64,000 nt of DNA, taken from contig NZ_FNIR01000006.1 of assembly GCF_900103975.1 (NCBI RefSeq), positions 62,001-126,000 on the forward strand, read 5' to 3'. The notes under the pieces are model-generated. The model was not told the origin of the DNA. It searched no databases and saw nothing but the letters and a program-made list of their open reading frames with translations. The first letter of the stretch is position 1. Each line of letters starts with the position of its first letter. The position numbers were made by a program, and so were the translations under genes. The stretch is from Klenkia soli. GTDB lineage: Bacteria > Actinomycetota > Actinomycetes > Mycobacteriales > Geodermatophilaceae. Shown one piece after another: positions 22,705 through 44,309 of this stretch.

Positions 22705-23724
22705 ATGGACAAGAAGATCGGGTTCCTGAGCTTCGGGAACTGGAACCCCGGCCGCGGGTCGCAGGTGCGCACCGGCCGGGAGGCCCTGGTGCAGAGCGTC
22801 GAGCTGGCCGTGGCGGCCGAGGAGCTCGGGCTGGACGGCGCCTACTTCCGGGTGCACCACTTCGCCCGCCAGCTGGCCGCCCCGTTCCCGCTGCTGGCCG
22901 CCGTCGCCGCCCGCACGTCGCGGATCGAGATCGGCACCGGCGTGATCGACATGCGCTACGAGAACCCGCTGTACATGGCCGAGGAGGCGGCGATCACCGA
23001 CCTGCTCGCCGACGGGCGGCTGCAGCTGGGCATCAGCCGGGGGTCACCGGAGACCGCCCTGCGCGGCGCGTCGTTATTCGGCTACCGGTTCGACGACGAC
23101 GGCGGTGACCTGGCCCGGCAGCACACCGAGCTGTTCCGCGCCGCGATCGCCGGCGCGGGCGTGGCCGACGCCGATCCCCGCATGACCGGCGGGGTCGAGG
23201 GCCGGCTGGGCATCCAGCCGCGCTCCGACGGTCTGCCCGAGCGCATCTGGTGGGGGTCGGGTACCCGCGGCACCGCGGTGTGGACCGGCGAGCAGGGCAT
23301 GAACCTGATGAGCTCGACCCTGCTCACCGAGGACACCGGCATCCCGTTCGACGAGCTGCAGGCCGAGCAGATCGAGCGCTACCGCGCCGCGTTCGCCGCG
23401 GCCGGCCACGGTCGCGAGCCCCGGGTGTCGGTCAGCCGCAGCGTCATGCCGGTGACCACCGACGAGGACCGGATGTACTTCGGCGACCGGTCGGGCGAGG
23501 ACCAGGTCGGGATCCTGGACGGCATGCGGTCGCGCTTCGGCAAGACCTACGCCGGCCCGCCGGATCAGCTGGCCGAGGAGCTCTCCAAGGACGCCGCCGT
23601 GCGCGAGGCCGACACCCTGCTGCTCACGGTGCCCAACATGCTCGGCGTCGACTACAACGCCCGGCTGCTCGAGACCGTCGTCCGCGAGGTCGCCCCCGCC
23701 ATCGGCTGGACGCCGAAGGCCTAA
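22705..23724 (+). CDS. Luciferase-like (LLM class) flavin/F420-dependent oxidoreductase
   Basis: 339 residues from ATG 22705, which has GAGGAGG five bases upstream; a TTG 33 bases further upstream is rejected. Bacterial-luciferase-like barrel: GFLSFGNWNP at the start, AYFRVHHFARQ, IEIGTGVIDMRYENPLYMAEEAA and QLGISRGSPE. Enzymes of this type use FMN or F420; with fbiC 8 kb away F420 is possible but not shown. It ends overlapping by 4 bases the 3' end of the opposing pyridoxamine-oxidase-like gene. A short TTGA-N4-TCAA dyad at 22672-22683 could be an operator. Confidence 0.88.
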   Translation: MDKKIGFLSFGNWNPGRGSQVRTGREALVQSVELAVAAEELGLDGAYFRVHHFARQLAAPFPLLAAVAARTSRIEIGTGVIDMRYENPLYMAEEAAITDLLADGRLQLGISRGSPETALRGASLFGYRFDDDGGDLARQHTELFRAAIAGAGVADADPRMTGGVEGRLGIQPRSDGLPERIWWGSGTRGTAVWTGEQGMNLMSSTLLTEDTGIPFDELQAEQIERYRAAFAAAGHGREPRVSVSRSVMPVTTDEDRMYFGDRSGEDQVGILDGMRSRFGKTYAGPPDQLAEELSKDAAVREADTLLLTVPNMLGVDYNARLLETVVREVAPAIGWTPKA

Positions 23725-24320
23725 CCGGCCAGGTGCTGCCACCGCCAGCCGTCGTCCTGCCGCACGTAGCGCAGGCGGCGGCTGGCGGTGTCCGCGCCCC
23801 CGGCCCAGAACGTCAGCTCCACCGGGCGCAGCCGGAAACCCACCCAGGACGGCGCCGGGGTGGATCCGGCGTCCACGGGGACGTCGGCGGCCCAGCCGAG
23901 CCGGCGCGCGGCGAGGTCCTGCGCGGCGAGCTCGTCGGTGTTCAGCCACGCCAGCCGCCGCAGGTGGTCCGAGCGCGCCGACCAGGCCCGGGTCAGCGGC
24001 CCGGCCTCCTCGGCCACGACCGGTCCGCGCAGCACCAGCTGCCGGGTGAACCCCGGCCACAGCACGGTCATGCTCGCCCGCGGGACGGCGGCGAGCTGGG
24101 CCACCTTGCGGCTGCCGCGCGAGGTGTGGAAGGCGAACCCGCTGCCGTCGACGCCCGAGAGCAGCACGGTGCGGGCATCGGGGCAGCCGTCCTCGCCGAC
24201 GGTGGACAGCACGACCTGCGGCCGGTCGGGGTCGTCGTCGGCGGGCAGCCAGCTGCGGGCGAGGTCGAGGGGGTCGGCGGGAGGTGCGCCGTCGGCGTGC
24301 AGGTCGAACGCCGCGGTCAC
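23721..24320 (-). CDS. Pyridoxamine 5'-phosphate oxidase family protein (PdxH-like)
   Basis: 199 residues from GTG 24320. Split-barrel FMN protein: DPDRPQVVLSTVGEDGCPDARTVLLSGVDGSGFAFHTSRGSRKVAQL is the typical FMN-binding N-terminal half (residues about 35-85), and the C-terminus has PVELTFWAGG and a final RLRY...WRWQHLAG, the R-L-xx-P/W-type end of PdxH. Its start overlaps by 4 bases the stop of the FAD oxidase upstream. Either a genuine pyridoxine-phosphate oxidase or a relative recruited to the catabolic region; the overlap favours a shared role with the FAD oxidase. Confidence 0.82.
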   Translation of the reverse strand: MTAAFDLHADGAPPADPLDLARSWLPADDDPDRPQVVLSTVGEDGCPDARTVLLSGVDGSGFAFHTSRGSRKVAQLAAVPRASMTVLWPGFTRQLVLRGPVVAEEAGPLTRAWSARSDHLRRLAWLNTDELAAQDLAARRLGWAADVPVDAGSTPAPSWVGFRLRPVELTFWAGGADTASRRLRYVRQDDGWRWQHLAG

Positions 24321-25651
24321 CGCACGGCGCCCTTGGTGGGGCCGCCGTACCCCGGGTTCAGCTTGCCCGGGTTCAGCAGGCCCTGCGGGTCGGTGCGCCG
24401 GGCGGTCTCGACGGTCCGCTCGAGCTGGAAGTCGACGTTCCACTGGTGCGGGTCGTGCACGCCGACGCCCAGCGCGTTCAGCTCGAGGATGCCGGCGGCC
24501 ACCTGCTCGGGGCTCCGGTAGACCCCGGCGAGCATGCCGATTGGCCCGGAGTGCCCGATCTCGTTGTGCAGCAGGCCGCCCTCGAACACCGCGTGCACCT
24601 CGTCGACCCGGTCGATCAGCGCCTCGCCGCCGACCTCCAGGTGGAAGTAGACGCCGGGGGCGCTCTTCTGCAGCCACTCGATGGGGTGGTTGTAGCTGAG
24701 CACGCTCAACGACAACGGCACCTGGGGGCCCTCGCGCACGTCCTCGAGCCGGCCGCCGGCGGCCTCGACCAGCTGCGTCGCCCGGGCCGTCGTGGACACC
24801 TCGAGGATGCCTCGGACGCTGGCCCGCCCGGCCGGGAACGCGGGGTCCTCGGGCAGCGCGGCGGAGATCTCGGGGGTGTCGGCCGAGATCAGCCGCGGGG
24901 TGGGCTGCAGCGCGCCGAGGTCGCGCAGCACCGACTGCGCGCCGTGGAAGTCGGGGAAGCTGGCGTAGAAGCCGCACCACTCCTGCAGCGGCTCCAGCCG
25001 CACGGTGGCCCGGGCGATGATGCCGGCGGTGCCGTAGTTGTGCACGAACGCCTGGGCCTCCTCGCCCTCGACGTGCACCAGCTCGCCGGAGCCGTCGGCG
25101 AACACGACGTCCAGGGCGGCGACGAAGCCGGCGTCGTTGGTGCCGTGCACGATGCTGCCGGTGCCGCCCGAGCCGCCGGCGAGGAAGCCGCCGAGCGAGC
25201 TCTGCACGGTCGAGGGGTACATCCACAGCTGCTGCCCGGTCTCCTGCGCCGCCCGCTCGCAGGTCACCATCGGCGTCCCCGCCTCCGCGGTCAGCAGGCC
25301 GTCGACGACCTCGACCACCGCCCGCGCCCGGGACAGGTCGAGGACCAGGCCCCCGGACATCGGGATGCCCTGGCCGTAGTTGCCCGTGCCCTTGCCGCGC
25401 GGGGTGACCGGCACGCCCAGGCGCACGGCGGCGGCGACGGCCAGCCCGATCTGGTCGGCCGTGGTCGGGAACGCCACGAGGTCGGCGACGCCCAGCGGCA
25501 GCAGCTCGCTGATGATCGGGCTCATCCGCGAGCCGTCGACCGAGACCCGCTCGCGCACCCGCAGCTCGGTGCTGACGTTGCGCTCGCCGAGGAGGGCGGC
25601 CAGCTCGGACTCGAGCGCGGACAGAGCAGTGGCGGGCACGGTGGCGGTCAC
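24317..25651 (-). CDS. FAD-binding (GlcD/VAO-type) oxidase or dehydrogenase
   Basis: 444 residues from GTG 25651; an ATG at 25702 in the same frame is the alternative, and neither has a clear ribosome-binding site. N-terminal FAD_binding_4 domain: VTPRGKGTGNYGQGIPMSGGLVLDL and the SSLGGFLAGGSGGTGSIVHGT loop, with EAQAFVHNYGTAGIIARA; C-terminal cap domain ending LLNPGKLNPGY, a common end of lactate/glycolate- and vanillyl-alcohol-oxidase-like proteins. Substrate unknown. It is divergent from the reductase at 25740 and coupled to the PdxH-like gene. Confidence 0.85.
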   Translation of the reverse strand: MTATVPATALSALESELAALLGERNVSTELRVRERVSVDGSRMSPIISELLPLGVADLVAFPTTADQIGLAVAAAVRLGVPVTPRGKGTGNYGQGIPMSGGLVLDLSRARAVVEVVDGLLTAEAGTPMVTCERAAQETGQQLWMYPSTVQSSLGGFLAGGSGGTGSIVHGTNDAGFVAALDVVFADGSGELVHVEGEEAQAFVHNYGTAGIIARATVRLEPLQEWCGFYASFPDFHGAQSVLRDLGALQPTPRLISADTPEISAALPEDPAFPAGRASVRGILEVSTTARATQLVEAAGGRLEDVREGPQVPLSLSVLSYNHPIEWLQKSAPGVYFHLEVGGEALIDRVDEVHAVFEGGLLHNEIGHSGPIGMLAGVYRSPEQVAAGILELNALGVGVHDPHQWNVDFQLERTVETARRTDPQGLLNPGKLNPGYGGPTKGAVR

Positions 25652-25739
25652 GACTCGATGAGAACCCGCTGCGGTTACATCCGTGTGACCCTTCTGCGTC
25701 ATCTGCACCCGCGGGCCCGTGCATGTGCAGGATCGGCCG

Positions 25740-26696
25740 GTGAGCTTCTTCTCCGACGTCGAACGGGACCTCGTCGTGGCAGGCCGCACCGTGCTCGCCG
25801 ACGGGGTCCTCGCCCTGGACCTGGTGTCCCACAACGGCCGGGACCTGCCCGGCTGGACCCCCGGCTCGCACGTCGACGTCGTGCTGCGCCCCGGCCTGGA
25901 ACGGCAGTACTCCCTCTGCTCCGACGTCGCCGACCGGTCGCGGTGGCGGCTGGCGGTGCTGCGCGAGGACGGCGGCGCCGGCGGGTCCGTGGCCCTGCAC
26001 GACGAGGTCGAGGTGGGCCAGCGGTTGCGGCTGCGCGGCCCCCGGAACCACTTCGTGTTCGAGGTGACCCCCGGGACCCGCCACCGGTTCGTCGCCGGCG
26101 GCATCGGCATCACCCCGCTGCGGGCGATGGTGGCCGCCGCCGACGCGGCCGGGGCCGACTGGTCGCTGGACTACTGCGGCCGCACGCGGGGCCGCATGGC
26201 GTTCGCCGACGAGCTGCTCGCCGCGTACCCGGGGCGCGTGCGGCTGCACGTCGCCGACGAGGGCGACCGGCTCGACGTCGCCACCCTCGAGGTCGACGCC
26301 GCCACCGCGGTGCACGCGTGCGGGCCGGCCAAGCTGCTCGACGCGCTCGAGGCCGCCGCCACCGGCTGGGCGGGCACGCTGCACGTCGAGCGGTTCGAGG
26401 CCAAGGAGTTCGGCGCACCGGTGTGGCCCGGGCCCTTCGAGGTCGAGCTGGCCCTGACCGGCACCTCCGTGGTCGTCGAGCCGGGCACCAGCGTGCTCGA
26501 CGCGCTGGCCGGCGCCGGGGTCGACGTCCTGTCCTCGTGCCGGGTCGGTACCTGCGGCACCTGCGAGACCCCGGTGCTGGAGGGCGCCGTCGAGCACCGC
26601 GACTCCGTGCTCAGCCCCGGCGAGCAGGCCGAGGACACCGCGATGATGGTCTGCGTCTCCCGTGCCGCCGGCCCGCGGCTCGTGCTCGACCTGTGA
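25740..26696 (+). CDS. Phthalate-dioxygenase-reductase/VanB-type ferredoxin reductase
   Basis: 318 residues from GTG 25740 (AGGA about 8 bases upstream). FMN/FAD barrel with RQYSLCSD near 60, NAD domain beginning FVAGGIGITPLRAM near 120, and a C-terminal plant-type [2Fe-2S] domain with CRVGTCGTC near 266 and the fourth Cys in MMVCVS near 303. Such class IA reductases pass electrons from NADH to Rieske oxygenases, for example in vanillate or N-methyl demethylation. The only Rieske oxygenase in the window is at 35912-36994, its probable partner. The stop overlaps the start of the next gene (GTGA). Confidence 0.9.
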   Translation: MSFFSDVERDLVVAGRTVLADGVLALDLVSHNGRDLPGWTPGSHVDVVLRPGLERQYSLCSDVADRSRWRLAVLREDGGAGGSVALHDEVEVGQRLRLRGPRNHFVFEVTPGTRHRFVAGGIGITPLRAMVAAADAAGADWSLDYCGRTRGRMAFADELLAAYPGRVRLHVADEGDRLDVATLEVDAATAVHACGPAKLLDALEAAATGWAGTLHVERFEAKEFGAPVWPGPFEVELALTGTSVVVEPGTSVLDALAGAGVDVLSSCRVGTCGTCETPVLEGAVEHRDSVLSPGEQAEDTAMMVCVSRAAGPRLVLDL

Positions 26697-27703
26697 CGGC
26701 ACCGCTCACCGCACCGGCCTGCCCGAAGGCGATGACCCACGGGCCGTGCGGCGGGGTCGCCGAGGACGGCCGCTGCGAGGTCGCACCCGTGCCGTGCTCC
26801 TTCCTGCCCCTGCCCACGATGCGGTGGAGCGGTCCGACGGCGGTCCGCACGGCGCCGGAACCCCGCCTGCTGGCGCTCATGCGGCAACGGCCGGTGGTCG
26901 TCGCCGACCTGCCGGCGGTGGCGCTGGACCGGGCCTCCCTCGAGCGGTCCGCCGACGTGGTCGTGGGCCACGTCGACGCCGTGCTCCTGGGTGACCACGG
27001 TGCCGCGCGGGTGCAGTTCTCGCCCACCTACCGGGCCTCGGTCGTGCAGGCCCGCGGACTCCCGGTGTGGCAGGGCCTCAACTGCCGGGACCGCAACCGG
27101 GTCGCGCTGGAGGGCGAGCTGGCGGGGCTGGCCGACCTCGGTGTGGGCGCGGTGCACTGCGTGACCGGCGACCACACGGCCACCGGGGACCGGCCCGACG
27201 CCCGACCGGTCTTCGACTGGGACTCCACCCAGCTGGCGGCCGCGGCCCGGGCGGCCGGCGTGCTGGTGTCGGTGGGGGAGACCCCGCACGGCCCGCCTGC
27301 AGAACGCCGTCCGCACCGGCTCGTGGAGAAGGTCCGGGCCGGGGCCGACGTCTGCTTCGTCAACCACACCGGCTCGGTGCAGGAGCTGCGCGACTTCGTC
27401 GAGCGGGCCACCGACGCGGGGGCCGACGTCCCGTTCGTCGCCTGCGTAGCGGTGGCGACCGACCCCGGGTCGGTCGCCGAGCTGCGCCGGTTCACCGGGC
27501 TGCGGCTGCCCGCGGGCTACCTGGCCGGCATCGAGTCCGCCCACGACCCGGCCCGGGCCGGCATCGCCGCGGCCACCGCGCTCGCCGAGGAGTACCTGGC
27601 CGTGCCCGGCGTCCGCGGCGTCGACCTGTCCGGGGTGGCCGCCCCCGGCACCGAGCTGACCACCGCCACGGCCCTGGCCGAGATCGGGAGACGACTGAGT
27701 TGA
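26693..27703 (+). CDS. Methylenetetrahydrofolate reductase-like protein with N-terminal Cys motif
   Basis: 336 residues, GTG 26693 overlapping the reductase stop. The first 40 residues carry C10, C19, C28 and C35 in CPKAMTHGPCGGV...GRCEV...C, the signature of the MTHFR C-terminal-domain (MetV-like) family; a barrel related to methylenetetrahydrofolate reductase follows (LNCRDRNRVALEGELAGLADLG, VHCVTGDH, residues about 120-160). The domain order, Cys motif first, is the reverse of what the family name implies. Known relatives move one-carbon units on tetrahydrofolate, so a place after oxygenase demethylation is a fair inference. Coupled with the amidohydrolase gene downstream. Confidence 0.8.
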   Translation: MTAPLTAPACPKAMTHGPCGGVAEDGRCEVAPVPCSFLPLPTMRWSGPTAVRTAPEPRLLALMRQRPVVVADLPAVALDRASLERSADVVVGHVDAVLLGDHGAARVQFSPTYRASVVQARGLPVWQGLNCRDRNRVALEGELAGLADLGVGAVHCVTGDHTATGDRPDARPVFDWDSTQLAAAARAAGVLVSVGETPHGPPAERRPHRLVEKVRAGADVCFVNHTGSVQELRDFVERATDAGADVPFVACVAVATDPGSVAELRRFTGLRLPAGYLAGIESAHDPARAGIAAATALAEEYLAVPGVRGVDLSGVAAPGTELTTATALAEIGRRLS

Positions 27704-27705
27704 GC

Positions 27706-28938
27706 ATGCTGCTGAGGTCGGTCACCGACCTGGACGGACGACTCCTCGACGTCCGGACCGACGACGTCGTCACCGACGTCGCGCCGGCCGGTGCGTTGGA
27801 GGTGCGCCCGGACGACGAGGTGCACGACCTGGCCGGCCACCACCTGCTGCCGGCACCCGCCGAGCCGCACGCCCACCTGGACAAGGCGCTCACCAGCCAC
27901 CGCGCGCCAAACCGCACCGGTGACCTGGCCGGTGCGATCGAGGCCATCCGCACGATCGCCGCGGCCTTCACCCACGAGGACCTCGTCGACCGGGCCACCC
28001 GCGCCGCGCACGAGTACCTGGCGAACGGGACGACGGCGATCCGCACCCACGCCGACGTCGGCGCCCACTCGGGCACCCGGCACGTGCGCGCACTGCTCGA
28101 GGTGCGCGAGGCCCTGGCCGGGCTGGTCGACGTCCAGGTGGTCGCCCTGGCCAGCGCGCCGTGGGCGCCGGGCGAGGCCCAGGCGAACGCCCGGCTGCTG
28201 GAGGAGGCCGTGGACCTCGGCGTCGACCTGGTCGGCGGGGCGCCCCACATGTGGCCCGACCGGGCCGCCGGGTTGGAGCTGTCCTTCGAGGTCGCCGCCC
28301 GTCGCGGGCTGCCGCTGGACCTGCACACCGACGAGACCCTCGACCCCACCGCGCAGGGCCTGCTGCACCTGGCGCAGCGCGTGCGGGCCACGGGGTTCGC
28401 GCACGGGGCCACGGCCAGCCACTGCGTCTCGCTCGGCGTGCACCCCCTCGAGGTCGCCCGGGCCACCGCGGCGGAGGTGGCCGCGGCGGGGGTCGGGGTC
28501 GTGGCGCTGCCGCAGACCAACCTCTACCTGCAGGGCCGGGAGTCCACGGTGGCCACCCCGCGCGGGCTGACCGCCGTCCGGGCGCTGCTGGACGCCGGGG
28601 CGACGCTGGGCGCCGGCGGGGACAACCTGCGCGACCCGTTCAACCCGATGGGCCGGGCCGACGCCTGCGAGGCGGCATCCCTGCTGGTCACCTCGGGTCA
28701 CCTCTCGACCCGCGAGGCCTGGCACGCCGTGAGCTCCGGTGCCCGGCGGTGCATGGGCCTGCCGGTGCCCGCCGTCGCGATCGGCTCGGTGGCCGAGTTC
28801 CTCGCAGTCGAGGCGGAGAGCCTCGACGCGGCCGTGGCCGGGGCCGGGACCTCGCGCACGGTGATCAGCCGCGGGCGGGTGGTGGCGAGCACGACGGTGC
28901 AGCGGGTGTTCCCCGCGAGGGCTGTGGCCCAGTCGTGA
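27706..28938 (+). CDS. Cytosine deaminase-like amidohydrolase
   Basis: 410 residues from ATG 27706; a TTG at 27700, overlapping the upstream stop and better spaced (9 bases) from GGGAG, is an equally good start. Metal and catalytic residues of the CodA group are in place: HAH in EPHAHLDKAL, HTDE in LDLHTDETLD, His in ASHCVSLG and Asp in GAGGDNLRDPF. It should deaminate or hydrolyse a cyclic amidine or amide such as a pyrimidine or creatinine-like ring. Third gene of the reductase / MTHFR-like operon. Confidence 0.87.
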   Translation: MLLRSVTDLDGRLLDVRTDDVVTDVAPAGALEVRPDDEVHDLAGHHLLPAPAEPHAHLDKALTSHRAPNRTGDLAGAIEAIRTIAAAFTHEDLVDRATRAAHEYLANGTTAIRTHADVGAHSGTRHVRALLEVREALAGLVDVQVVALASAPWAPGEAQANARLLEEAVDLGVDLVGGAPHMWPDRAAGLELSFEVAARRGLPLDLHTDETLDPTAQGLLHLAQRVRATGFAHGATASHCVSLGVHPLEVARATAAEVAAAGVGVVALPQTNLYLQGRESTVATPRGLTAVRALLDAGATLGAGGDNLRDPFNPMGRADACEAASLLVTSGHLSTREAWHAVSSGARRCMGLPVPAVAIGSVAEFLAVEAESLDAAVAGAGTSRTVISRGRVVASTTVQRVFPARAVAQS

Positions 28939-29056
28939 CCAGACGGTCGACTCCGTTCACCGACGGCACACGCAACCGAAACAGACCCGGCCCATCGTGA
29001 CGACATCGCCCGGTACCGCCGGGCGCACCGACTCCCTTTTCGCACCGGAGGTGACC

Positions 29057-29830
29057 GTGAGCGCTCCTGCGCCCACCGCCCCGCCCGCCGCCACCGGCAC
29101 CACCGTCCTGCAGTTCACCGACGTGGCCCGGCAGTTCCCGGACGGCACCGTCGCCCTGGAGGGCGTGGACCTGACGATCCAGCGCGGTGAGTTCGTCACC
29201 GTCGTCGGCCCCTCGGGCTGCGGAAAGAGCACCCTGCTGCGGATCGCCTCCGGACTGGACGAGGCCTCCGCCGGCACCGCGACGGTCGACGCCCGGCGGA
29301 TCGGCTACGTCTTCCAGGACGCCACGCTGCTGCCCTGGCGCAGCGTGCAGAAGAACGTCGAGCTGCTCGCCGAGCTGCACGGCATGAGCAAGACGGCCAC
29401 CAACCAGGCCGCCCTCGACGCGATCGAGCTGGTCGGGCTGCGCGGGCACGAGAAGAAGCTGCCCCGGGCGCTGTCGGGGGGCATGAAGATGCGTGCCTCG
29501 CTGGCCCGCTCGCTGACCCTCGACCCCGACCTGTTCCTCTTCGACGAACCCTTCGGCGCGCTGGACGAGATCACCCGCGAGCGCCTCAACGACGAGCTGA
29601 TCCGGCTGTTCGTGGCCAAGGGCTTCGGGGCGCTGTTCATCACCCACTCGGTCTCGGAGGCCGTCTACATGTCGACCCGGGTGCTGGTGATGTCCGGCCG
29701 GCCGGGCCACATCGTCGACTCCTTCGAGGTGCCGTTCGGCACCGACCGCACCCCCGAGCTCCGGTTCACCCCCGAGTTCGCCAAGCTCGCCGGCGAGGTC
29801 TCCCACGCGCTGCGCGAGGGCCACTCGTGA
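29057..29830 (+). CDS. ABC importer ATPase (nitrate/sulfonate/thiamine-precursor type)
   Basis: 257 residues from GTG 29057, which has GGAGG five bases upstream; an upstream GTG at 28997 would add 20 residues. Walker A GPSGCGKSTLL, Q-loop FQDATLLPW, signature LSGGMKMRASLARSL, Walker B LFLFDEPFGALDE and switch His ITHS. Belongs to the SsuB/TauB/NrtD/ThiZ-like group. Coupled to the permease gene by a 4-base overlap and followed by the binding lipoprotein, making a complete importer in the middle of the catabolic region, so it probably brings in the substrate of that region. Confidence 0.92.
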   Translation: MSAPAPTAPPAATGTTVLQFTDVARQFPDGTVALEGVDLTIQRGEFVTVVGPSGCGKSTLLRIASGLDEASAGTATVDARRIGYVFQDATLLPWRSVQKNVELLAELHGMSKTATNQAALDAIELVGLRGHEKKLPRALSGGMKMRASLARSLTLDPDLFLFDEPFGALDEITRERLNDELIRLFVAKGFGALFITHSVSEAVYMSTRVLVMSGRPGHIVDSFEVPFGTDRTPELRFTPEFAKLAGEVSHALREGHS

Positions 29831-37078: not shown

Positions 37079-38632
37079 TCAGGCCCGTTGCACGCCCGCG
37101 AGGACGACGGCCGCGGCGTTCCGACCCGAGGCGCCCCACACGCCGGCGCCGGGGAAGGTGCCGGCGCCGGTGAGGTACAGCCCGCGGACCGGGGTCGCGT
37201 ACCGGGTGAGCTCGCGGTCCCGGCCGACCAGCGCGGCCAGCGGACCGCCGGAGAAGGACGGCGCCCACCCCCGCGGCATGCCGAGGTCGCGCTCGTAGTC
37301 CTCGGGGGTGACCACCCGCCACCGCCGGATGCCCGCGGCGAACCCGGGACCCACCTGGGCGGCGAGCAGGTCCAGCCACCGCTGCGGTTCCGCCGAGGAC
37401 GCCCAGCCGCCCGGCACGGCGTACGGGGTCCAGAGCACCTCGAGGGACAGCAGGTGGTCCGCGCCCACGCGCATCGTCGGGTCCAGCACCGACGGGGTGT
37501 TGACCAGAGCCATCGGGCGGGCCGCGACGGTCCCGGCGCCGTGTGCGGCCTCGATCGAGGTCAGGGACGGCGCGAGCGTCGTCGTCGGCACGTGGCCGTC
37601 GAACGGGCCGACCCGGTCCTGCAGGCGGGCGACCTGCGGGAGCACCGGCAGGGTGCCCATCACGGCGTCGAGCTTGGACTCGTAGCCGTCGGGCTGCGGC
37701 CGGCCGGTCCACCGGGCGACCATCGCCTCGGCACCGGACGGCGGGTGCGGGCCCAGCCAGTCGACGACGGTGGTGCGCGGGTCGACCGAGCTGACGACGA
37801 CGTCGGCGCGGACCTCCTCCCCGGTGTCCAGCAGCACCCCGCGGACGGCTGGCCCCTCCACGAGCACGCGGGCGACCCGCGCGCCGGTGCGGACGACGCC
37901 ACCCGCAGACTCCAGCGCCCCGCGCAGGGCCGTCGGCAGCGCGCCGGACCCGCCGACCGGGCGGCCGATCCCGACCAGGTGCCGCATCGCGATCCCGGTC
38001 GCGCCCAGCCCGGTGCCCGGGGTGGACGGCGCGACGCCCCAGACAGCGGGGCCGGTGGTGAACGCACCGGCCACCAGGAACTCGTCGGTGAGGTACCGGC
38101 CCAGCACGTCGGCGACGCTGCGGCGGGACCAGTCCAGCAACCGGGGGAGCGCGAGCGCCTTGCGGTCGGCGAGCTTCCGCAGCACCCGGCCGGGGGTGGG
38201 CGGGGTCGAGGTGAGCTCGACCAGCAGCCGGGCCACCGGGGTGGCGTCGGCCAGGTAGCGGCGGTACCCGGCGACCTGGGTGGGGTGGGTGACCGCGAGG
38301 GCGTCGAGGGTGCGCTCGGTGTCGCGGAACTGCACGAACGCCGGGCCCGCCGCGTCGTCCCAGCTCACGTGCAGCGCCTGCGGGTCGACGTCCAGGTAGC
38401 GCAGGCCGTGCGCGGCCAGGTCCAGCTCGTCGGCGATGGTCGTCGTCCGGACCATCGTGTGGTCGCAGTTGCAGATGTTGACCCGGGCGCCGTCCAGCGC
38501 GTCGACGGTGGCGGCGCAGCCGCCGGTGTCCGGGCCGGCCTCCAGCACGGTGACGTCGAGCCCGGCCCGGGCCAGGTACGCCGCGCAGACCAGCCCGTTG
38601 TGCCCGCCCCCGACCACCACCACCGTCGTCAT
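37079..38632 (-). CDS. Phytoene-desaturase-like FAD-dependent oxidoreductase
   Basis: 517 residues from ATG 38632, overlapping the upstream amidohydrolase stop (ATGA). Dinucleotide-binding VVVVGGGHNGLVCAAYLARAG at the N-terminus, a CAATVDAL GG-doublet region (VLEAGPDTGGCAA), and the C-terminal FAD motif RGLYLTGAGTFPGAGVWGASGRNAA. This is the carotenoid-desaturase/amine-oxidase superfamily, but no carotenoid genes are near; in this setting an oxidative step on a heterocyclic or amine intermediate is likelier. Several similar proteins occur in natural-product and catabolic clusters. Substrate unknown. Confidence 0.85.
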   Translation of the reverse strand: MTTVVVVGGGHNGLVCAAYLARAGLDVTVLEAGPDTGGCAATVDALDGARVNICNCDHTMVRTTTIADELDLAAHGLRYLDVDPQALHVSWDDAAGPAFVQFRDTERTLDALAVTHPTQVAGYRRYLADATPVARLLVELTSTPPTPGRVLRKLADRKALALPRLLDWSRRSVADVLGRYLTDEFLVAGAFTTGPAVWGVAPSTPGTGLGATGIAMRHLVGIGRPVGGSGALPTALRGALESAGGVVRTGARVARVLVEGPAVRGVLLDTGEEVRADVVVSSVDPRTTVVDWLGPHPPSGAEAMVARWTGRPQPDGYESKLDAVMGTLPVLPQVARLQDRVGPFDGHVPTTTLAPSLTSIEAAHGAGTVAARPMALVNTPSVLDPTMRVGADHLLSLEVLWTPYAVPGGWASSAEPQRWLDLLAAQVGPGFAAGIRRWRVVTPEDYERDLGMPRGWAPSFSGGPLAALVGRDRELTRYATPVRGLYLTGAGTFPGAGVWGASGRNAAAVVLAGVQRA

Positions 38633-39909
38633 GAGCGGGCCGCGAGGAGGGTGGTGAGCTCGCGGACGACGTCGGACTCCTCGCGGGTGACCAGCCGGCC
38701 GTCGCGGACCACCACCCGGCCGCCCACCACCACGTGCTTCGGGCGGCGCCCGGGCGAGGCCCAGAGCAGCCCGGCGACCGGGTCGGCGACCCCGGTGTCG
38801 GCCACCCCGGTGACGTCCCAGCAGACCAGGTCGGCGCGGGCGCCGGGCGCGATGCGGCCCAGATCGGGCCGGCCCAGCCCGTCCGCCGAACCCGTGGTCG
38901 CCCAGCCGAGCACCTCGCACGCGCTCACCGGCCGGCCGACCAGCGGGGCGACCTGCATGGCCAGCCGGGCGTCGGCCAGCAGGTGCCCGGCGTCGTTGGA
39001 CCCCCCGCCGCTGGTGCCCAGCCCGACGGTGACCCCGGCGTCGGCCAGGGCGGCCACCGGCGCGATGCCCCAGCCCATCGGCAGGTCGCAGCCGGGCGCG
39101 TGGGTGGCGGTGACCCCGGAGCCGGCGACCAGCTCGAGCTCGGCCGGGGTGAGGTCGCACAGGTGGGCCAGCGTGACGTCGGGGGCCAGCCAACCCCACT
39201 CGTCGAGCAGGTCCAGCGGCCGCCGTCCGTACTTCTCGACGGCGATCGCGACGTCGACCTGCTCGTTGGCCTGGGTGCGCCGGCGCAGGCCGCGGGCCGC
39301 GGCCACCTCGGCCATCAGCCGGAAGGTGTCGGGGGAGTCGGAGTGCACCCCGGCCGGGCCGACGGCGACCTGGACGACGCCGTCGTCGGACACCCCGCCG
39401 TGCGGCACCAGGGCCGCGGCGATCGCGTCGGCCGAGGCGGCGGCGGTCTCGGCGTCGTCCCGGGCGCTGCCGCGGACGAACGCCACCCGGGCACCCAGCT
39501 CCCGGGCGGCCGCCGCGGTGGCCGAGGCGATGCCCACCCCGCCGTCGGTCAGCGCGGGCCAGGTCAGGTGGTGGTCGGCGACGGTGGTGACCCCGCACAG
39601 CAGCGCCTCGGCCAGCCCGGCCGAGGCAGCGGCGTGCGCCAGCTCGGCGTCCACCCCGACCGCGGTGTAGGCCGCGGCCATGGTCGGCAGCCACTGCGCC
39701 ATCGGCACGCCGCGGGTCGCGGGCAGCGTGCGGAACGCGGTCTGCAGCAGGTGGTGGTGGGCGTTGACCAGGCCCGGGGTGACGACGCAGCCGGTCGCGT
39801 CGAGCACCTCGGCGCCGGACGCCGGCCCGAACCTGCCGTCGTCCCCGCAGGTGATGTCCCCGGCACCGTCCCCGCCCAGCACGGCCACGGCGCCTCGCAC
39901 GGTCAGCAT
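38629..39909 (-). CDS. 8-oxoguanine-deaminase/SsnA-like amidohydrolase with altered metal ligands
   Basis: 426 residues from ATG 39909 (a GTG at 39918 is possible). The N-terminal HHH in NAHHHLLQTAFR is normal and the segment LAHLCDLTPAE supplies one His, but where relatives have a T-H-L-A-E motif this protein has RTQANE (His to Gln), and where they have G-L-G-V-D-G it has GLGTSGGGSND (Asp to Ser). Both residues normally bind the metal or activate water. So the protein is either inactive or works with a changed site. It is the first gene of a two-gene operon with the flavoprotein and is divergent from the creatininase operon. Confidence 0.83.
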   Translation of the reverse strand: MLTVRGAVAVLGGDGAGDITCGDDGRFGPASGAEVLDATGCVVTPGLVNAHHHLLQTAFRTLPATRGVPMAQWLPTMAAAYTAVGVDAELAHAAASAGLAEALLCGVTTVADHHLTWPALTDGGVGIASATAAAARELGARVAFVRGSARDDAETAAASADAIAAALVPHGGVSDDGVVQVAVGPAGVHSDSPDTFRLMAEVAAARGLRRRTQANEQVDVAIAVEKYGRRPLDLLDEWGWLAPDVTLAHLCDLTPAELELVAGSGVTATHAPGCDLPMGWGIAPVAALADAGVTVGLGTSGGGSNDAGHLLADARLAMQVAPLVGRPVSACEVLGWATTGSADGLGRPDLGRIAPGARADLVCWDVTGVADTGVADPVAGLLWASPGRRPKHVVVGGRVVVRDGRLVTREESDVVRELTTLLAARS

Positions 39910-39989
39910 GCGCAGCACCCTGGCAGCCCCGTGTTCCGCGCAGGTGACGGCTGGAACGCCGCCGACACCCGGCCGCAATCACCCGGCCC

Positions 39990-39995
39990 TAGCGT
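39990..39995 (+). promoter_or_regulatory. Candidate -10 TAGCGT for leaderless creatininase operon transcript
   Basis: TAGCGT fits TANNNT and ends 7 bases before the GTG at 40003, so transcription would start at the initiation codon. No ribosome-binding site is present, in agreement. An identical hexamer precedes the amidase GTG at 62876. Confidence 0.45.
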
Positions 39996-40002
39996 CCCCG
40001 GC

Positions 40003-40782
40003 GTGACCGTCCGACTGCTCACCGAGCTCTCCGCCCCCGCCATCGCCGACGCGCTCGGCCCGGACTCGGTGCTGGTGCTGCCGACCGGGGCCATCGAGCA
40101 GCACGGTCCGCACCTGCCGGTCGCGACCGACCTGATCACCGCCCAGAGCATGGCCGAGCTGGCCGTCGCCGAGTTCGGCGAGGAGCTGGACCTCTGGCTG
40201 CTGCCGCCGCTGGCCTACACCAAGAGCAACGAGCACCACTGGAGCTGCGGCACCTTCTGGCTCTCGGCGCAGACCATGCTGAGCGTGCTGCACGACCTGG
40301 GTGCCTCGATGGTCAAGACGCCGGCCCGCCGGTTGGCCTTCCTCAACGGGCACGGCGGCAACTCCGCGCTGCTCCAGGTCGCCGCCCGCGACCTGCGCAT
40401 CGCCCACGGCCTGCGCACCTTCACCCTGCACCCCTCGCTGCCGGCCGACCACGGCGGGAAGAGCCCGGAGAGCGAGCTGGGCCTGGGCATCCACGGCGGC
40501 CACGAGGAGACGTCGCTGATGCTGCACCTGCGCCCCGAGCTGGTGGACATGGAGAAGGCCCAGCGCTGGGTGCCCGAGCAGCTCACCGAGTACCGGCACG
40601 TGCGGTTCGGCGGGTCGGTGAGCTTCGGCTGGACCTCGGACGACTTCGGGCCCGACGGCGTGATCGGCGACGCGAGCACCGCCACCGCCGAGCACGGCAA
40701 GGAGAAGGTCGAGGCGATGCTGGCCTACCTCGGGGAGGCGTTCGCCGAGGTCGCCGCCTTCGACCCCGGCCCCCGCGCGTGA
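40003..40782 (+). CDS. Creatininase (creatinine amidohydrolase) family protein
   Basis: 259 residues, GTG 40003. Metal ligands of the family: Glu and His in TGAIEQHGPHLPVATD with the Asp at its end, His in LNGHGGNSAL near 113 and Glu in HGGHEETSLML near 170. Family members hydrolyse cyclic amides such as creatinine, or act in mycofactocin maturation (MftE) and riboflavin-linked pathways. No mycofactocin genes are near, so a ring-opening or amide-hydrolysing step is favoured. First of five tightly packed genes (40003-44309). Confidence 0.88.
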   Translation: MTVRLLTELSAPAIADALGPDSVLVLPTGAIEQHGPHLPVATDLITAQSMAELAVAEFGEELDLWLLPPLAYTKSNEHHWSCGTFWLSAQTMLSVLHDLGASMVKTPARRLAFLNGHGGNSALLQVAARDLRIAHGLRTFTLHPSLPADHGGKSPESELGLGIHGGHEETSLMLHLRPELVDMEKAQRWVPEQLTEYRHVRFGGSVSFGWTSDDFGPDGVIGDASTATAEHGKEKVEAMLAYLGEAFAEVAAFDPGPRA

Positions 40783-41534
40783 GGCTGGCCGGCAAGCGGG
40801 TCGTCGTCACCGGGGGTGCCCGGGGGATCGGCGCGGCGATGGTCCGCACCTTCGCCGCCGAGGGCGCCGTCGTCGCGGTGCTCGACCGGCTCGCCGACGA
40901 GGCCGGGAAGCTGGCCGCCGAGGTCGGCGGGCACGCGGTCGAGGTCGACCTGGCCGACGTCGTTGCCACCCGGGCGGCGACGTCGACGGCCATCGACGCC
41001 CTGGGCGGGGTCGACGTGCTGGTCAACAACGCCGGCATCCTCCGGTTCGCCTCGCTGCTGGACCTCGAACCGCACGAGTGGGACGAGGTCTTCGCGGTCA
41101 ACGTGCGCGCGATGCTGGTGACCACCCAGGTCGCCGCGACGGCGATGGCGGCCGAGCGGGCACCGGCGCACCCGGGGGACGTCGTCGGCAAGATCGTCAA
41201 CACCGCCTCGATGGGCGGCAAGGCCGGCGGGGCCGGGCAGGCGCACTACGCGGCGTCCAAGGCCGCGGTCATCGGCCTCACCCGGGCCACCGCCGAGGAG
41301 CTCGGCCCGCTGGGCATCACCGCGACCTGCCTGTGCCCGGGGTACGTGCTCACCGAGATGGGCGCCGGCACCCGCACGCCTGCGGACGTCGCCCGGTGGG
41401 CCACGAAGTCGCCGCTGGGCCGGCTCGGGGAACCGGAGGACGTCGCCCGGGTCGCGCTGTTCCTGGCGTCGTCGGACTCGGACTACCTGACCGGCGACGC
41501 GCTCAACGTGGCCGGCGGGATGGTGACCCACTGA
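40779..41534 (+). CDS. Short-chain dehydrogenase/reductase
   Basis: 251 residues; GTG 40779 overlaps the creatininase stop. Classical SDR: TGGARGIGAAM nucleotide site, NNAGIL near 85, active-site Ser in NTASMGGKAGG, YAASK (Tyr, Lys) near 155 and a C-terminal GGMVTH. NAD(P)-dependent oxidation of an alcohol or reduction of a ketone. Its position between a creatininase homologue and a cysteine hydrolase suggests it handles an intermediate of the same pathway; substrate unknown. Confidence 0.92.
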   Translation: MRLAGKRVVVTGGARGIGAAMVRTFAAEGAVVAVLDRLADEAGKLAAEVGGHAVEVDLADVVATRAATSTAIDALGGVDVLVNNAGILRFASLLDLEPHEWDEVFAVNVRAMLVTTQVAATAMAAERAPAHPGDVVGKIVNTASMGGKAGGAGQAHYAASKAAVIGLTRATAEELGPLGITATCLCPGYVLTEMGAGTRTPADVARWATKSPLGRLGEPEDVARVALFLASSDSDYLTGDALNVAGGMVTH

Positions 41535-42271
41535 CCCGCAACGACTGGACCCTGTCCCGCGACGCCGTCGACCTGCGCCGGCCGGTCCTCGAACCGCGGC
41601 CGGTCGATGTGGGCGCGCTGCCGCAGCGGCTGACCCTGGACCTGGCCCGCACCGCCCTGGTCGCGGTCGACCTGCAGAACGACTTCTGCCACCCCGAGGG
41701 CTGGCTGGCCTCGATCGGGGTCGACGTGTCCGGGGCGGCCGGGCCGATCGGTGCCCTGGCCACCGCGCTGCCCCCGCTGCGCGCAGCCGGCGTCCCCGTC
41801 GTGTGGGTGAACTGGGGCAACCGGCCCGACCGGGCCAACCTCCCACCCGGCGTCCGGCACGTCTACGACCCCGACGGCGCCTCGACCGGCATCGGCGACC
41901 CGCTGCCCGGTGGCTCGCGCGTGCTGGAGCTCGGCTCCTGGTCGGCCGGGCTGGTCGACGAGCTGGTCCCCGAGCCCGGTGACCTGCAGGTCGCCAAGTA
42001 CCGGATGAGCGGGTTCCCCGACACCCCGCTGGACTCCGTGCTGCGCAACCTGCGGGTGGACACCCTGCTGTTCGCCGGCGTCAACACCGACCAGTGCGTG
42101 CTGGCCACGCTGGTGGACGCCGCGAACCTGGGCTACGACGTCGTCCTCGTGGAGGACCTCTGCGGCACGACGTCCCCCGACTTCTGCACCGCCGCGACCC
42201 TCTACAACGTGCGGCAGTGCTTCGGCTTCACCACCACCTCGGCCGAGCTGCTCGCCGGCCTGCACCCGTAG
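41531..42271 (+). CDS. Isochorismatase-family cysteine hydrolase; probable CTG start
   Basis: 246 residues. The catalytic triad is visible: Asp in VAVDLQNDFC, Lys in VAKYRMSGF and Cys in AGVNTDQCVLATL. The NWGNRPDRANLPP and YRMSGFPDTPLDSVLRNL segments mark the subgroup that includes ureidoacrylate- and biuret-hydrolase-like amidases. The family's conserved N-terminus (W-x8-DLRRP) begins two codons after position 41534, and no ATG, GTG or TTG lies before it in frame back to the stop; the only fitting initiator is CTG 41531, overlapping the SDR stop (CTGA). The first GTG, at codon 26 or so, would delete this region. Confidence 0.83.
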   Translation: MTRNDWTLSRDAVDLRRPVLEPRPVDVGALPQRLTLDLARTALVAVDLQNDFCHPEGWLASIGVDVSGAAGPIGALATALPPLRAAGVPVVWVNWGNRPDRANLPPGVRHVYDPDGASTGIGDPLPGGSRVLELGSWSAGLVDELVPEPGDLQVAKYRMSGFPDTPLDSVLRNLRVDTLLFAGVNTDQCVLATLVDAANLGYDVVLVEDLCGTTSPDFCTAATLYNVRQCFGFTTTSAELLAGLHP

Positions 42272-42279
42272 GAGACCCC

Positions 42280-42717
42280 GTGGCCCTCGCCCCCGTCGTC
42301 AAGTCCCTGGCGGACATCACCCCGCACTACATCGGCGAGAACCGGTCCGTGCGGCTGGCCGTGCTCTCCGGTCCCGCCGACGGCTCCGGCACGACCGTCG
42401 TCCTGGAGATCTGGGAGCCCGGCGGTTCGCAGCCGGACAACTCGCACGAGGCCTCCACCGAGACCTTCGTGGTGCTGCGCGGCACGGCGCGGGCGCACAG
42501 CGACCAGCACGTGGCCGACCTGGGCCCGGGCGACGTCATCGTCCTGCCGGCCACCTCGGTGCACCACATCGTCAACACGTCGGAGTCCGAGCGGCTCTAC
42601 ACGATCACCGTGATGGAGAACGACGGCGGTTTCGCCGACCTGATCCTGACCGGCCCCGAGGCCTTCCTGGACGCCGCGGACGCCGCGGTGCTCGGCGCCG
42701 TCCTGACCCCGGCGTGA
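42280..42717 (+). CDS. Cupin-domain protein
   Basis: 145 residues from GTG 42280, GGAG five bases upstream. A single cupin barrel with SHEASTETFVVLRGTARAH (His, Glu, Glu of motif 1) and the second motif PGDVIVLPATSVHHIVN. Possibly a metal-dependent isomerase, dioxygenase or binding protein; no specific function can be assigned. It lies 8 bases after the cysteine hydrolase and overlaps the amidase start by 4 bases, so it belongs to the same transcript. Confidence 0.85.
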   Translation: MALAPVVKSLADITPHYIGENRSVRLAVLSGPADGSGTTVVLEIWEPGGSQPDNSHEASTETFVVLRGTARAHSDQHVADLGPGDVIVLPATSVHHIVNTSESERLYTITVMENDGGFADLILTGPEAFLDAADAAVLGAVLTPA

Positions 42718-44309
42718 CCATCGCGGACGTCGGCGGCTGGGACGTCGAGGACGAGGTCCGCGCGGCCGTCGGGCGGTACGAGTCCGCGCTCGCCGCGGAC
42801 GACCTGGCCGAGCTCGACGCGCTCTTCGCCCCCGGGGACACGACGCTGCGGGCCGACGCCGGGGGAGTGCTGGTCTCGCACGGCGCGATCAGCGACTACC
42901 GCCGCGGCCGGGGCGGTGCCCCGGCGCGCACGGTGACCGCGCTGCACGTCGTCGTGCACACCGGCGACCTCGCGACGGCGGTGGCGGAGACGCTGCGCCC
43001 GGACGGCACCCGCGGCCTGCAGACCCAGGTGTGGGAGCGCGGTGCGGTGGGCTGGCAGGTGCGGGTGGCGCACGTCAGCTCCGGCCCGGCCCCCACGACG
43101 AGGACGGCGGCCGACGCCTCGTGCGAGCGGGCCGACCCGGCGACCTGGCGGGTGGTCGGCTCGCCGCTGGTCGCGCCCTCCTCGGGTGGCCCGCTGGACG
43201 GCGTGTCGATCGCGGTCAAGGACCTGGTGGACGTCGCGGGGCACCCGGTCGGCGCGGGCAACCCGGTCCGGCTGGCGCAGGCCGTGCCCGCGGGCGCGCA
43301 CGCCCCGGTGCTGGCCGACCTGCTCGCCGCGGGCGCGCACGTGCGGGGCATCGCGCGCACCGACGAGCTGGCCTACAGCCTGTCGGGCACCAACGTGCAC
43401 CACGGCAGCCCGGCCAACCCGTGGGGCGCCGGACTCGTGGTCGGTGGGTCGACGAACGGCCCGGCGTCGGCGGTCGCGCGCGGGCAGGCCGACCTGGGCC
43501 TGGGCACCGACACCGCCGGGTCGATCCGGGTGCCGGCGAGCTACTGCGGGCTGCACGGGCTGCGGCCCACCCACGGGGTGCTGAGCCTGGACGGCGTGCT
43601 GCCGCTGGCCCCCTCCTTCGACACCGTGGGTTGGCTGACCCGGGACGCCGGCCTGCTGCACCGGGTGGCGTCGGAGCTGCTGCCGGCGGCCACGCCGATC
43701 ACCGCGCTGGTGCTGGCCTCCGACCTGGTGGCACTGGCCGACGAGGCGGTGGCGTCGGCGCTGTCGGCGGCGGCTGCCGAGCTGGCCGCCGCGTCGGGAC
43801 TCGCCCTCTCGCGGCAGGCGCTGGTCACGCCGGAGGAGCACGCGCGGTGGTTCACCGCGTTCCGCACCGTGCAGGGCGCGCAGGCGTGGGCGGCGCACGG
43901 GGCGTGGATCACCGCGAACCCCGGCGTGCTGGGGCCGGGCATCGCCCAGCGCTTCGTCGACGGGTCGAAGGTCGGCTCGGACGACCTGGTCGAGGCGGCG
44001 GCGGTGCTCGCCGAGGGTCGCGCGGCGCTCCGGGCGCGGCTGCCCGGGGGCACGGCGGTGCTGCTGCCGGCCGCCAGCTCGACCGCACCGCTGGTGGGCG
44101 CGACCGCCGAGCGCAAGGCGACCTACCGTGCTGCGACGCTCCGGCTGACCTGCCTGGCCGGGGTCGGCGGACTGCCCTCGGCGGTCGCCCCCGCGGCGCT
44201 GGTCGACGGCCTGCCGGTGGGGCTGGCCCTGCTCGGTGCTGCGGGCGGCGACACGGCGCTCACCGGTCTGCTGGCGGCCTGGGACCGGCGGCTCGCCCCG
44301 CCGTCCTGA
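42714..44309 (+). CDS. Fusion of AtzH-like (NTF2-fold) domain and amidase-signature domain
   Basis: 531 residues, GTG 42714 overlapping the cupin stop. Residues about 1-125 form an NTF2/AtzH-like domain (VRAAVGRYESALAADDLAELDALFA, VSHGAISDYRRGRGG). Residues about 150-531 are an amidase: Lys in IAVKDLVDV, cis-Ser in VGGSTNGPASAV and nucleophile Ser in GTDTAGSIRVPASY. AtzH and the amidases AtzE/AtzF act on carbamoyl-urea intermediates of cyanuric acid breakdown, so the natural guess is the hydrolysis of a ureido or carbamoyl fragment. Last gene of the creatininase operon; tRNA-Arg follows. Confidence 0.88.
   Translation: MTIADVGGWDVEDEVRAAVGRYESALAADDLAELDALFAPGDTTLRADAGGVLVSHGAISDYRRGRGGAPARTVTALHVVVHTGDLATAVAETLRPDGTRGLQTQVWERGAVGWQVRVAHVSSGPAPTTRTAADASCERADPATWRVVGSPLVAPSSGGPLDGVSIAVKDLVDVAGHPVGAGNPVRLAQAVPAGAHAPVLADLLAAGAHVRGIARTDELAYSLSGTNVHHGSPANPWGAGLVVGGSTNGPASAVARGQADLGLGTDTAGSIRVPASYCGLHGLRPTHGVLSLDGVLPLAPSFDTVGWLTRDAGLLHRVASELLPAATPITALVLASDLVALADEAVASALSAAAAELAAASGLALSRQALVTPEEHARWFTAFRTVQGAQAWAAHGAWITANPGVLGPGIAQRFVDGSKVGSDDLVEAAAVLAEGRAALRARLPGGTAVLLPAASSTAPLVGATAERKATYRAATLRLTCLAGVGGLPSAVAPAALVDGLPVGLALLGAAGGDTALTGLLAAWDRRLAPPS

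Follow-up and report, generated by a model that had tools for sequence, protein, structure and literature searches.

Nineteen genes were called by a codon-usage gene model between positions 23721 and 44309 (~20,600 letters) of the window, i.e. the whole 64,000-nucleotide stretch of Klenkia soli DNA that was analysed. They comprise one importer and many N-heterocycle enzymes, and seven of the gene junctions are 4-bp overlaps.

At the left end, a PNPOx/PhzG-like FMN protein of 199 aa (23721..24320; PF01243, PF10590) and an FAD_binding_4 flavoprotein of 444 aa, FADb4 (24317..25651), are encoded on the reverse strand. The forward strand then carries a PDR/VanB-type reductase, FdR, with an FNR domain and a C-terminal [2Fe-2S] domain (25740..26696; PF00970, PF00111), an MTHFR-like protein (26894..27703; PF02219, E 1e-9) and a cytosine-deaminase-like amidohydrolase, AHcodA (27706..28938; NCBIfam cytosine deaminase, E 4e-65, below cut-off). 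These are followed, on the same strand, by the ATPase (29057..29830; PF00005), permease (29827..30732; PF00528) and lipoprotein substrate-binding protein (30851..32026; ThiY/NMT1-type fold, no Pfam family above cut-off) of an ABC importer, and by an AS-family amidase with Ser-cisSer-Lys motifs (32130..33497; PF01425, E 1e-84). The reverse strand encodes an FmdA/AmdA formamidase/acetamidase-family hydrolase (33472..34542; PF03069), the 8-oxoguanine deaminase-like amidohydrolase AH2, in which the E/H/D deaminase residues are kept (34539..35915; PF01979), a VanA_C-type Rieske oxygenase (35912..36994; PF00355, PF19112), a CrtO/phytoene-desaturase-like FAD protein (37079..38632; PF01593; CrtO model E 6e-57, below cut-off) and the TrzN/8-oxoguanine deaminase-like amidohydrolase AH3 (38629..39918; nearest solved protein TrzN, E 2e-63). 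Forward genes complete the block: a creatininase-family amidohydrolase, Crn (40003..40782; PF02633, E 6e-66), a short-chain dehydrogenase (40779..41534; PF13561), a RutB/BiuH-like isochorismatase-type cysteine hydrolase (41609..42271; PF00857; RutB model E 1e-38, below cut-off), a small cupin (42280..42717; PF07883) and an AtzH/HpxZ-like domain fused to an amidase (42714..44309; PF11533 and PF01425; HpxZ 68.6 bits, below cut-off).

Every gene class named in the first-pass annotation, including one complete importer, was recovered with Pfam or NCBIfam. Its two flavoproteins became three (PNPOx-like, FAD_binding_4 and CrtO-like); both of its amidases are present, the second with the additional N-terminal AtzH/HpxZ-like domain. 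Relatives of the MTHFR-like protein are 323-332 aa long against the 269 aa called here, so that this gene probably begins upstream of 26894.

Metal-hydrolase HxH/HxxE/D motifs occur in two of the three amidohydrolases, and the Rieske CxH..CxxH, isochorismatase D/K/C and amidase K/S/S motifs are present. In AHcodA, whose nearest solved proteins are cytosine deaminase and AtzC, H55, H57, H207, E210, H239 and D306 are invariant (22 sequences), as are H73, H75, H239, E242, H271 and D322 in AH2 (7 sequences). In AH3, Ser303 replaces the usual Asp, and Q216, E219, H252 and S303 are invariant (20 sequences). Besides TrzN, a triazine hydrolase, the matches of AH3 and AH2 include 8-oxoguanine-deaminase-type proteins and proteins of the type of 2paj, an isoxanthopterin deaminase. 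When the motifs were aligned by eye with the catalytic Q, E, H and D that poNdmH has among the 8-oxoguanine/N2-alkylguanine hydrolases of the AtzB cluster (PMC13054789), AH2 was found to keep E242, H271 and D322, with Q absent, and AH3 to keep Q59, E219 and H252, with S303 in place of D. Neither curated score was reached by Crn against true creatininase (TIGR04448, 100.7 bits, cut-off 235) or by the isochorismatase against RutB, its nearest solved relative (132.8 bits, cut-off 378). Crn resembles the MftE model more than that of true creatininase, and reaches the cut-off of neither.

Insertion beside a tRNA gene and recurrence of a gene core

In five Klenkia genomes without the block, the luciferase-type gene and the tRNA-Arg that flank it here, and that served as flanks for the comparison, lie only ~55-530 bp apart. 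Homology to these genomes stops at 23713-23719 on the left and returns at 44314-44319 on the right; the flanks are contiguous in all five, and the break points differ by at most 6 bp on each side. The right edge abuts the 3' end of tRNA-Arg(TCT) (44315..44390, reverse strand; ARAGORN, Rfam). Like tRNA-integrating genomic islands, the block is inserted precisely at the 3' end of a tRNA gene, and related genomes have this site unoccupied. No integrase was annotated in the block by Pfam or NCBIfam, and no exact copy of the final 12 or more bases of the tRNA turned up in the rest of the window. These sequence comparisons show an insertion next to tRNA-Arg as one unit, and the block can be described as a movable catabolic island.

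The block occupies this same site in three Klenkia genomes, and three others (G001, G002, G007) carry the same genes in the same order at another place. Most block-bearing genomes of the genus keep the genes together, whereas in G004 they are split. Because the first-pass annotation had drawn almost exactly the coordinates of the insertion, its grouping of these genes is not due to chance.

A search for the same set in other genomes, which that annotation had proposed, identified a core of six genes: importer ATPase, permease, binding protein, AHcodA, Crn and FADb4. FADb4 relatives were found in 119 contigs. Among the best 80 of these, from which the counts out of 80 are taken, the whole core occurs in 63, and in 55 of the 61 for which at least 20 kb was examined. 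FdR is present in 66/80 loci and the core-associated PNPOx-like gene in 52/80. The MTHFR-like gene is found in 16/80 (two of them several kb off the core) and an FTCD-like gene in 7/80, always with the MTHFR-like gene. A compact 12-gene version occurs in another family (G150), relatives also carry a DIOX_N gene, and three relatives have within their blocks a luciferase-type monooxygenase gene that is absent from the K. soli block.

Plasmid records were matched by FADb4 (132) and by the binding protein (2). Five of these loci, all proteobacterial, were inspected (four found via FADb4, one via the binding protein), and each had the core; the minimal core there consists of Crn, AHcodA, FADb4 and the importer, accompanied by a RidA-family gene. 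When the isochorismatase was used as anchor, 8 of the 13 loci fetched had at least one core gene nearby (L193-L200) and five had at least three (L193, L195, L196, L199, L200).

On sequence grounds, then, the core is found as a group in many actinobacteria and in some proteobacteria, and in other families the add-on genes occur alongside core genes. Beyond Klenkia the block does separate into core and add-ons, yet the two still occur together. The precise insertion, the two sites within the genus and the retention of the core across families and phyla lend good support to the earlier proposal of one catabolic unit for an N-heterocycle. The abundance of FADb4 relatives (119 contigs, 132 plasmid records), with the core usually whole, suggests a common nutrient.

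The Rieske oxygenase and a possible methylation of the substrate

The nearest solved relatives of the Rieske oxygenase include SxtDIOX (E 1.5e-35) and NdmA (5e-35), and so hydroxylases (SxtT) as well as N-demethylases. The protein has the CxH-CxxH motif, the mononuclear-iron domain and a relation to NdmA over most of its length; SxtT-type hydroxylases score equally, and N-demethylation is a possible activity. Among solved proteins, FdR is nearest to P450-fused reductases and phthalate dioxygenase reductase.

An N-methylated substrate of the methylxanthine type, from which the Rieske protein would remove the methyl group and the MTHFR-like protein capture the one-carbon unit, would fit the presence of NdmA and NdmB among the nearest solved Rieske relatives and of an MTHFR-like gene within the block. 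Against it, only one of 16 core genomes searched whole has a close Rieske relative (73%); two have relatives at 35-37%, six weak ones and seven none. No Rieske relative was seen in the flanks of the best 80 of 119 loci, which extend at most 10 kb and stop short of the Rieske gene even in Klenkia. Formaldehyde-oxidation genes (frmA/frmB) were not recognised in the block by Pfam or NCBIfam. We consider such a substrate unlikely. The first-pass description of the substrate as probably methylated finds no support, since the Rieske gene does not regularly accompany the core, its nearest solved relatives include SxtT hydroxylases, and HpxDE oxidises unmethylated purines (PMC7373994). Demethylation by the block is possible but not required.

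Candidate substrates

The reading that we tentatively prefer, at somewhat less than an even chance, is that the block breaks down an imported heterocycle with an aminopyrimidine ring, most likely a pteridine, e.g. the pterin part of folate. The ThiY-type importer would take up the amino-substituted ring compound, and AHcodA, AH2 and AH3 would replace ring amino groups by oxygen. The ring might be oxygenated by FADb4, by the Rieske protein with FdR and by the other flavoproteins; Crn could open a ring lactam and the isochorismatase release a carbamoyl or ureido fragment. Small amides left over (e.g. oxamate- or oxalurate-like) may be hydrolysed by FmdA and the two amidases, and the MTHFR-like protein, joined by the FTCD-like protein in some relatives, would handle a one-carbon unit or folate itself.

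This reading draws on FADb4, which is related to the folate-catabolism flavin oxygenase 6V42 over its full length in both sequence and fold; 6V42 is its top match by sequence and also by model, where it leads the next entry by 7.5 Z units. It draws also on the importer being nearest ThiY, on the 8-oxoguanine-deaminase-type and 2paj-type matches of AH3 and AH2, on the folate-enzyme relatives (MTHFR, FTCD-like) in core loci and on XdhC, near 22 of the best 80 of 119 loci; xanthine dehydrogenases hydroxylate pterins too. Against a pteridine, FADb4 and 6V42 share only 26% identity, and the MTHFR-like protein is absent from most core copies. Two amidases were seen in the block, but no clear candidate for the cleavage of folate into pterin and p-aminobenzoyl-glutamate.

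Pteridines probably rank first and purines next. Import and oxidation of a guanine- or xanthine-type purine, possibly damaged or alkylated, is a possibility that we regard as doubtful. The Rieske protein and FdR would, if so, act like HpxDE, the amidohydrolases would do the work of 8-oxoguanine or N2-alkylguanine hydrolases, and FmdA and the AtzH-amidase might finish oxalurate-like products. Uricase, HIUase or OHCU decarboxylase genes lie in the examined flanks of 10 of the best 80 of 119 core loci, in several families, and in one of the five proteobacterial loci (L201) a ureidoglycolate lyase, an enzyme of allantoin breakdown, is annotated; by these genes a purine fits at least as well. OHCU decarboxylase was present somewhere in 10/10 core genomes searched against 4/14 control genomes. 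In Nocardioides (L151) the AtzH-amidase, FmdA, a Rieske protein (32%) and a reductase neighbour a urate hydroxylase HpxO above cut-off, and at L116 FmdA and the AtzH-amidase stand beside AllB, an M20 hydrolase and a class-V aminotransferase. On the other side, an apparently complete canonical urate cluster lies elsewhere in Klenkia, which has a second uricase/HIUase/OHCU set as well, and the 13 isochorismatase-anchored loci contain no urate gene. The xanthine riboswitch RF03054 had no match in region 23500-44500, even at E 5, in nine loci scanned against Rfam, or in five whole plasmid records, where no positive control gave a match either. FADb4, PNPOx and Crn are not known to take part in the described purine routes.

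The binding protein is nearest ThiY and a thiamin-binding protein, and has the ThiY fold of ThiXYZ systems. With AHcodA and FmdA/AmdA, this would suit a 2-methyl-4-aminopyrimidine (HMP or formylaminopyrimidine) being deaminated, oxidised and opened to acetamide or formamide for FmdA. We judge this improbable: no thiamine or thiamine-salvage genes were recognised in the block by Pfam or NCBIfam, and three deaminase-type enzymes exceed the need of such a substrate. ThiY-type proteins also occur in purine systems, so that the fold does not fix the ligand, and NMT1/THI5-like annotations pointed wrongly to thiamine in the xanthine system (PMC7373994). Least probable is a cyclic guanidine or iminohydantoin (creatinine-like, or an oxidised-guanine product), with AHcodA as iminohydrolase, Crn as lactam hydrolase and ureido products. 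The proteobacterial minimal core would agree with it, as would Rhizobium, in which the core sits between urea amidolyase/amidase and isochorismatase genes, and the resemblance of the Rieske protein to SxtT, which acts on a guanidinium compound. Crn, however, is nearer MftE, as described above, and creatinase and sarcosine genes were not seen in the block.

To extend the pteridine reading, the six-gene core may represent a widespread, undescribed route for pteridines or equivalent bicyclic vitamin or nucleobase fragments, common to actinobacteria and proteobacteria and extended from lineage to lineage by different oxygenases (Rieske, 2-oxoglutarate, luciferase-type) and amide hydrolases; we put this forward with more reserve than the reading itself. 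The Klenkia island would then be its most complete single-locus form among the loci examined. Pathways for soil recycling of cofactors and nucleobases are only now being worked out, and the binding protein and flavoprotein offer direct, cheap tests of the substrate.

Comparison with described systems

In agreement with the first-pass annotation, a full-text search of the open-access literature found no described pathway with the whole set. Systems resembling parts of it are the HpxDE/hpx clusters and the proteobacterial xanthine-riboswitch regulon, which, according to PMC7373994, have NMT1/TauA-type importers, Rieske and PDR proteins, 8-oxoguanine-deaminase-like (PRK12393) amidohydrolases and DIOX_N, the last shared with relatives of the block. 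The block differs from these in having no riboswitch match and in its extra FADb4, PNPOx, Crn, isochorismatase, cupin and amidases, and the canonical urate genes are elsewhere in the genome.

Caffeine N-demethylation by NdmABCDE (PMC4408171) shares a Rieske protein near NdmA/NdmB and a PDR-type reductase; no NdmC, NdmE, frmA or frmB was recognised in the block, and the additional cluster that NdmD carries is absent from FdR (318 aa). The Rut pathway shares the RutB-like isochorismatase, here under the RutB cut-off, and the luciferase-type monooxygenase of the three relatives, which the block lacks. RutA and RutC were not found in the block by Pfam or NCBIfam, and RutA is not among the 25 matches listed for the relatives' luciferase-type protein. 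Lumichrome (vitamin B2) catabolism by the Lum genes (PMC12746152) shares Rieske chemistry and pyrimidine-ring hydrolysis; no P450, thiamin-dependent decarboxylase, molybdenum hydroxylase or catechol dioxygenase was recognised in the block. The folate-catabolism flavin oxygenase of PDB 6V42/6V43, a role given by the entry title, is 26% identical to FADb4.

With the s-triazine and cyanuric acid enzymes the block shares AH3 (nearest TrzN), AHcodA (near AtzC), an AtzH domain fused to an AtzE-like amidase and a BiuH-like isochorismatase; cyanuric acid hydrolase was not recognised in it, and the scores lie below curated cut-offs. Since its proteins have diverged within the genus (65-98% identity), the block is not a recent herbicide cassette. 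Its amidohydrolases may be kin of the stock behind herbicide-degrading enzymes (compare PMC13054789).

Gene content of the block

A codon-usage gene model built for this analysis, combined with Pfam and NCBIfam scans, placed 19 genes at window positions 23721-44309, with seven 4-bp overlaps among them, and bore out the gene classes which the first-pass annotation had assigned there. Every NCBIfam match listed for these genes falls below its curated cut-off; therefore their exact functions cannot be read from family names. The G+C content of the block (74.9%) is like that of its surroundings (73.5 and 75.3%).

The amidohydrolase AH3 (window 38629-39918) and all of its 19 aligned relatives carry Ser at the position of the deaminases' catalytic Asp and Gln in place of a metal His: on these sequence grounds, the active site is conserved and unusual for an amidohydrolase. 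The AtzH/HpxZ-like domain fused to an amidase (42714-44309) is a candidate oxalurate or oxamate hydrolase on a single polypeptide, and the gene for this fusion, the AtzH-amidase, adjoins that of the acetamidase/formamidase FmdA in several urate-gene clusters.

Presence and absence of the block in Klenkia

In five Klenkia genomes (G001, G002, G003, G004 and G007) the luciferase-type gene on the left directly neighbours the tRNA-Arg and the ABC-F gene on the right, the block being absent between them. At these empty sites homology to the window stops at 23713-23719 and restarts at 44314-44319, with 55 to ~530 bp between. The block was found at the window's site, beside tRNA-Arg, in G000, G005 and G006, and its genes were found in identical order at a different place in G001, G002 and G007. 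Searched for in five other genomes, the two genes flanking this second location were mostly missing, with a single match, in G000. Two extra block genes, identified by Pfam on the G001 copies, were observed. G001, G002, G006 and G007 each have a DIOX_N 2-oxoglutarate-type oxygenase gene; three of these genomes (G001, G002 and G006) also have an intact gene for a luciferase-type monooxygenase, of which G007 shows a fragment or a miscalled version. In genome G008 the block was seen on fragments. G003 has neither the flavoprotein FADb4 nor close Rieske relatives. In G004 the reductase FdR, FADb4 and the PNPOx-like gene stand by themselves, with a Rieske relative (71%) in a separate location.

No integrase is annotated in the block, and a repeat of the tRNA 3' end, sought at its left edge, was not found; an origin as a mobile element with integrase or attachment repeats is unsupported.

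The six-gene core and the genes that accompany it

An alignment of FADb4 was scanned against one genome per species, yielding 119 relatives, of which the best 80 loci were kept. These loci are mutually related, so that their counts are not independent; 19 of the 80 span less than 20 kb, and the anchors used (FADb4, isochorismatase and AH2) bias neighbourhood counts toward the anchor. Read with these limits, the complete core (creatininase-like Crn, cytosine-deaminase-like AHcodA, FADb4 and the importer ATPase, permease and binding protein) was present in 63 of these best 80 loci, FdR in 66, AH3 in 55, PNPOx in 52 and a helix-turn-helix/cupin regulator in 50. Lower counts in the same 80 loci were obtained for the amidohydrolase AH2 (28), XdhC (22), the MTHFR-like gene (16), HIUase and OHCU decarboxylase (9 each), uricase (8) and an FTCD-like gene (7). 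The Rieske, CrtO, isochorismatase and cupin genes were seen in none of the 80, where the flanks (at most 10 kb) are too short to reach these genes even in Klenkia. G000 has three OHCU decarboxylase matches and two uricase/HIUase/OHCU sets (contig C18, 384802-388011; contig C19, 24104-24562).

Among the hosts of these loci are Blastococcus, Modestobacter, Microbacterium, Cellulomonas, Curtobacterium, Amycolatopsis, Nocardioides and Rhodococcus. A compact version, made up of the core with FdR, MTHFR, AH2, Rieske (71-73%), AH3 and PNPOx, occurs in G150, a genome from a different family. Among plasmid records, FADb4 matched 132 and the binding protein 2. All five plasmid loci opened contain the six core genes, and four of the five an annotated Rid/RidA-family gene; in the fifth (Rhizobium) we read an older product name as the same family. 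A heliorhodopsin gene (locus L067, 13827-14582) lies near the core cluster of a Microbacteriaceae genome.

Sixteen core genomes were searched whole with the Rieske protein, and nine had a match with an E value of 1e-8 or lower: G150 at 73% identity, two at 35-37% and six weaker. Both 35-37% copies adjoin a reductase, FmdA and the AtzH-amidase, beside the core locus. Relatives of 70-71% identity in G004 and G016 sit away from block genes, and a close Rieske relative alone is therefore no pathway marker. The G004 relative (locus L008, contig C20) is near a TypA/BipA gene, with no block gene there; genes matching by size alone adjoin that of G016 (locus L009, contig C45).

The isochorismatase search across 345 genomes of the class found a strong match in 19 of them, own genome counted. 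In the 13 neighbourhoods fetched, the AtzH-amidase occurred in 12, the cupin in 11 and FmdA in six; eight held at least one core gene and five held three or more. This co-occurrence, together with the Rieske copies beside the core, indicates that the add-on genes belong with the core, though they are often separate. In Luteimicrobium a LOG-family (TIGR00730) gene (locus L152, 15683-16312) stands between a Rieske-reductase pair and FmdA, and the actinobacterial sRNA Ms_IGR-7 (RF02469) falls within a core-plus-add-on cluster (locus L200, 12421-12538).

Candidate substrates and known systems

A pteridine is our tentative choice for the substrate of the block, and a purine is the less probable rival: three lines of evidence favour the former, one the latter, and two are compatible with both. 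Because the two compounds have the amino-oxo-pyrimidine half in common, most of the machinery would suit one as well as the other. ThiY, Thi5 and 6V42, a flavin oxygenase of folate catabolism and the top match of FADb4, are prominent among the structural matches listed, a listing in which the absence of other families does not exclude them; the role of 6V42 is taken from its entry title, no paper naming it having been found in the open-access literature. On the side of a purine, an annotated ureidoglycolate lyase lies beside the core in a proteobacterial plasmid locus (L201). A xanthine riboswitch was sought, with no match in the block or the scanned loci and none in five whole plasmid records, where the positive control was also silent. 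The first-pass annotation had called the substrate probably methylated; this is not supported, methylation not being a common property of the core. A methylated substrate is possible, given the NdmA-like Rieske protein.

Thiamine catabolism, raised by the ThiY-like fold of the binding protein, was ranked lower, because none of the block's genes was recognised as a thiamine gene and because, according to PMC7373994, NMT1/THI5 annotation was misleading in a purine system. An s-triazine reading was dropped: no cyanuric acid hydrolase was recognised in the block, which has diverged across the genus. Lumichrome catabolism was set aside, as the gene set described in PMC12746152 differs from that of the block.

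No paper describing this gene set was found in the open-access literature, which misses most subscription journals and was judged by title and start of abstract. Riboflavin breakdown is the subject of PMC12746152 and PMC12752717, caffeine of PMC4408171 and triuret hydrolase of PMC7948467, and N2,N2-dimethylguanine hydrolases are members of the amidohydrolase superfamily (PMC13054789). The xanthine riboswitch regulon (PMC7373994) resembles part of the block.
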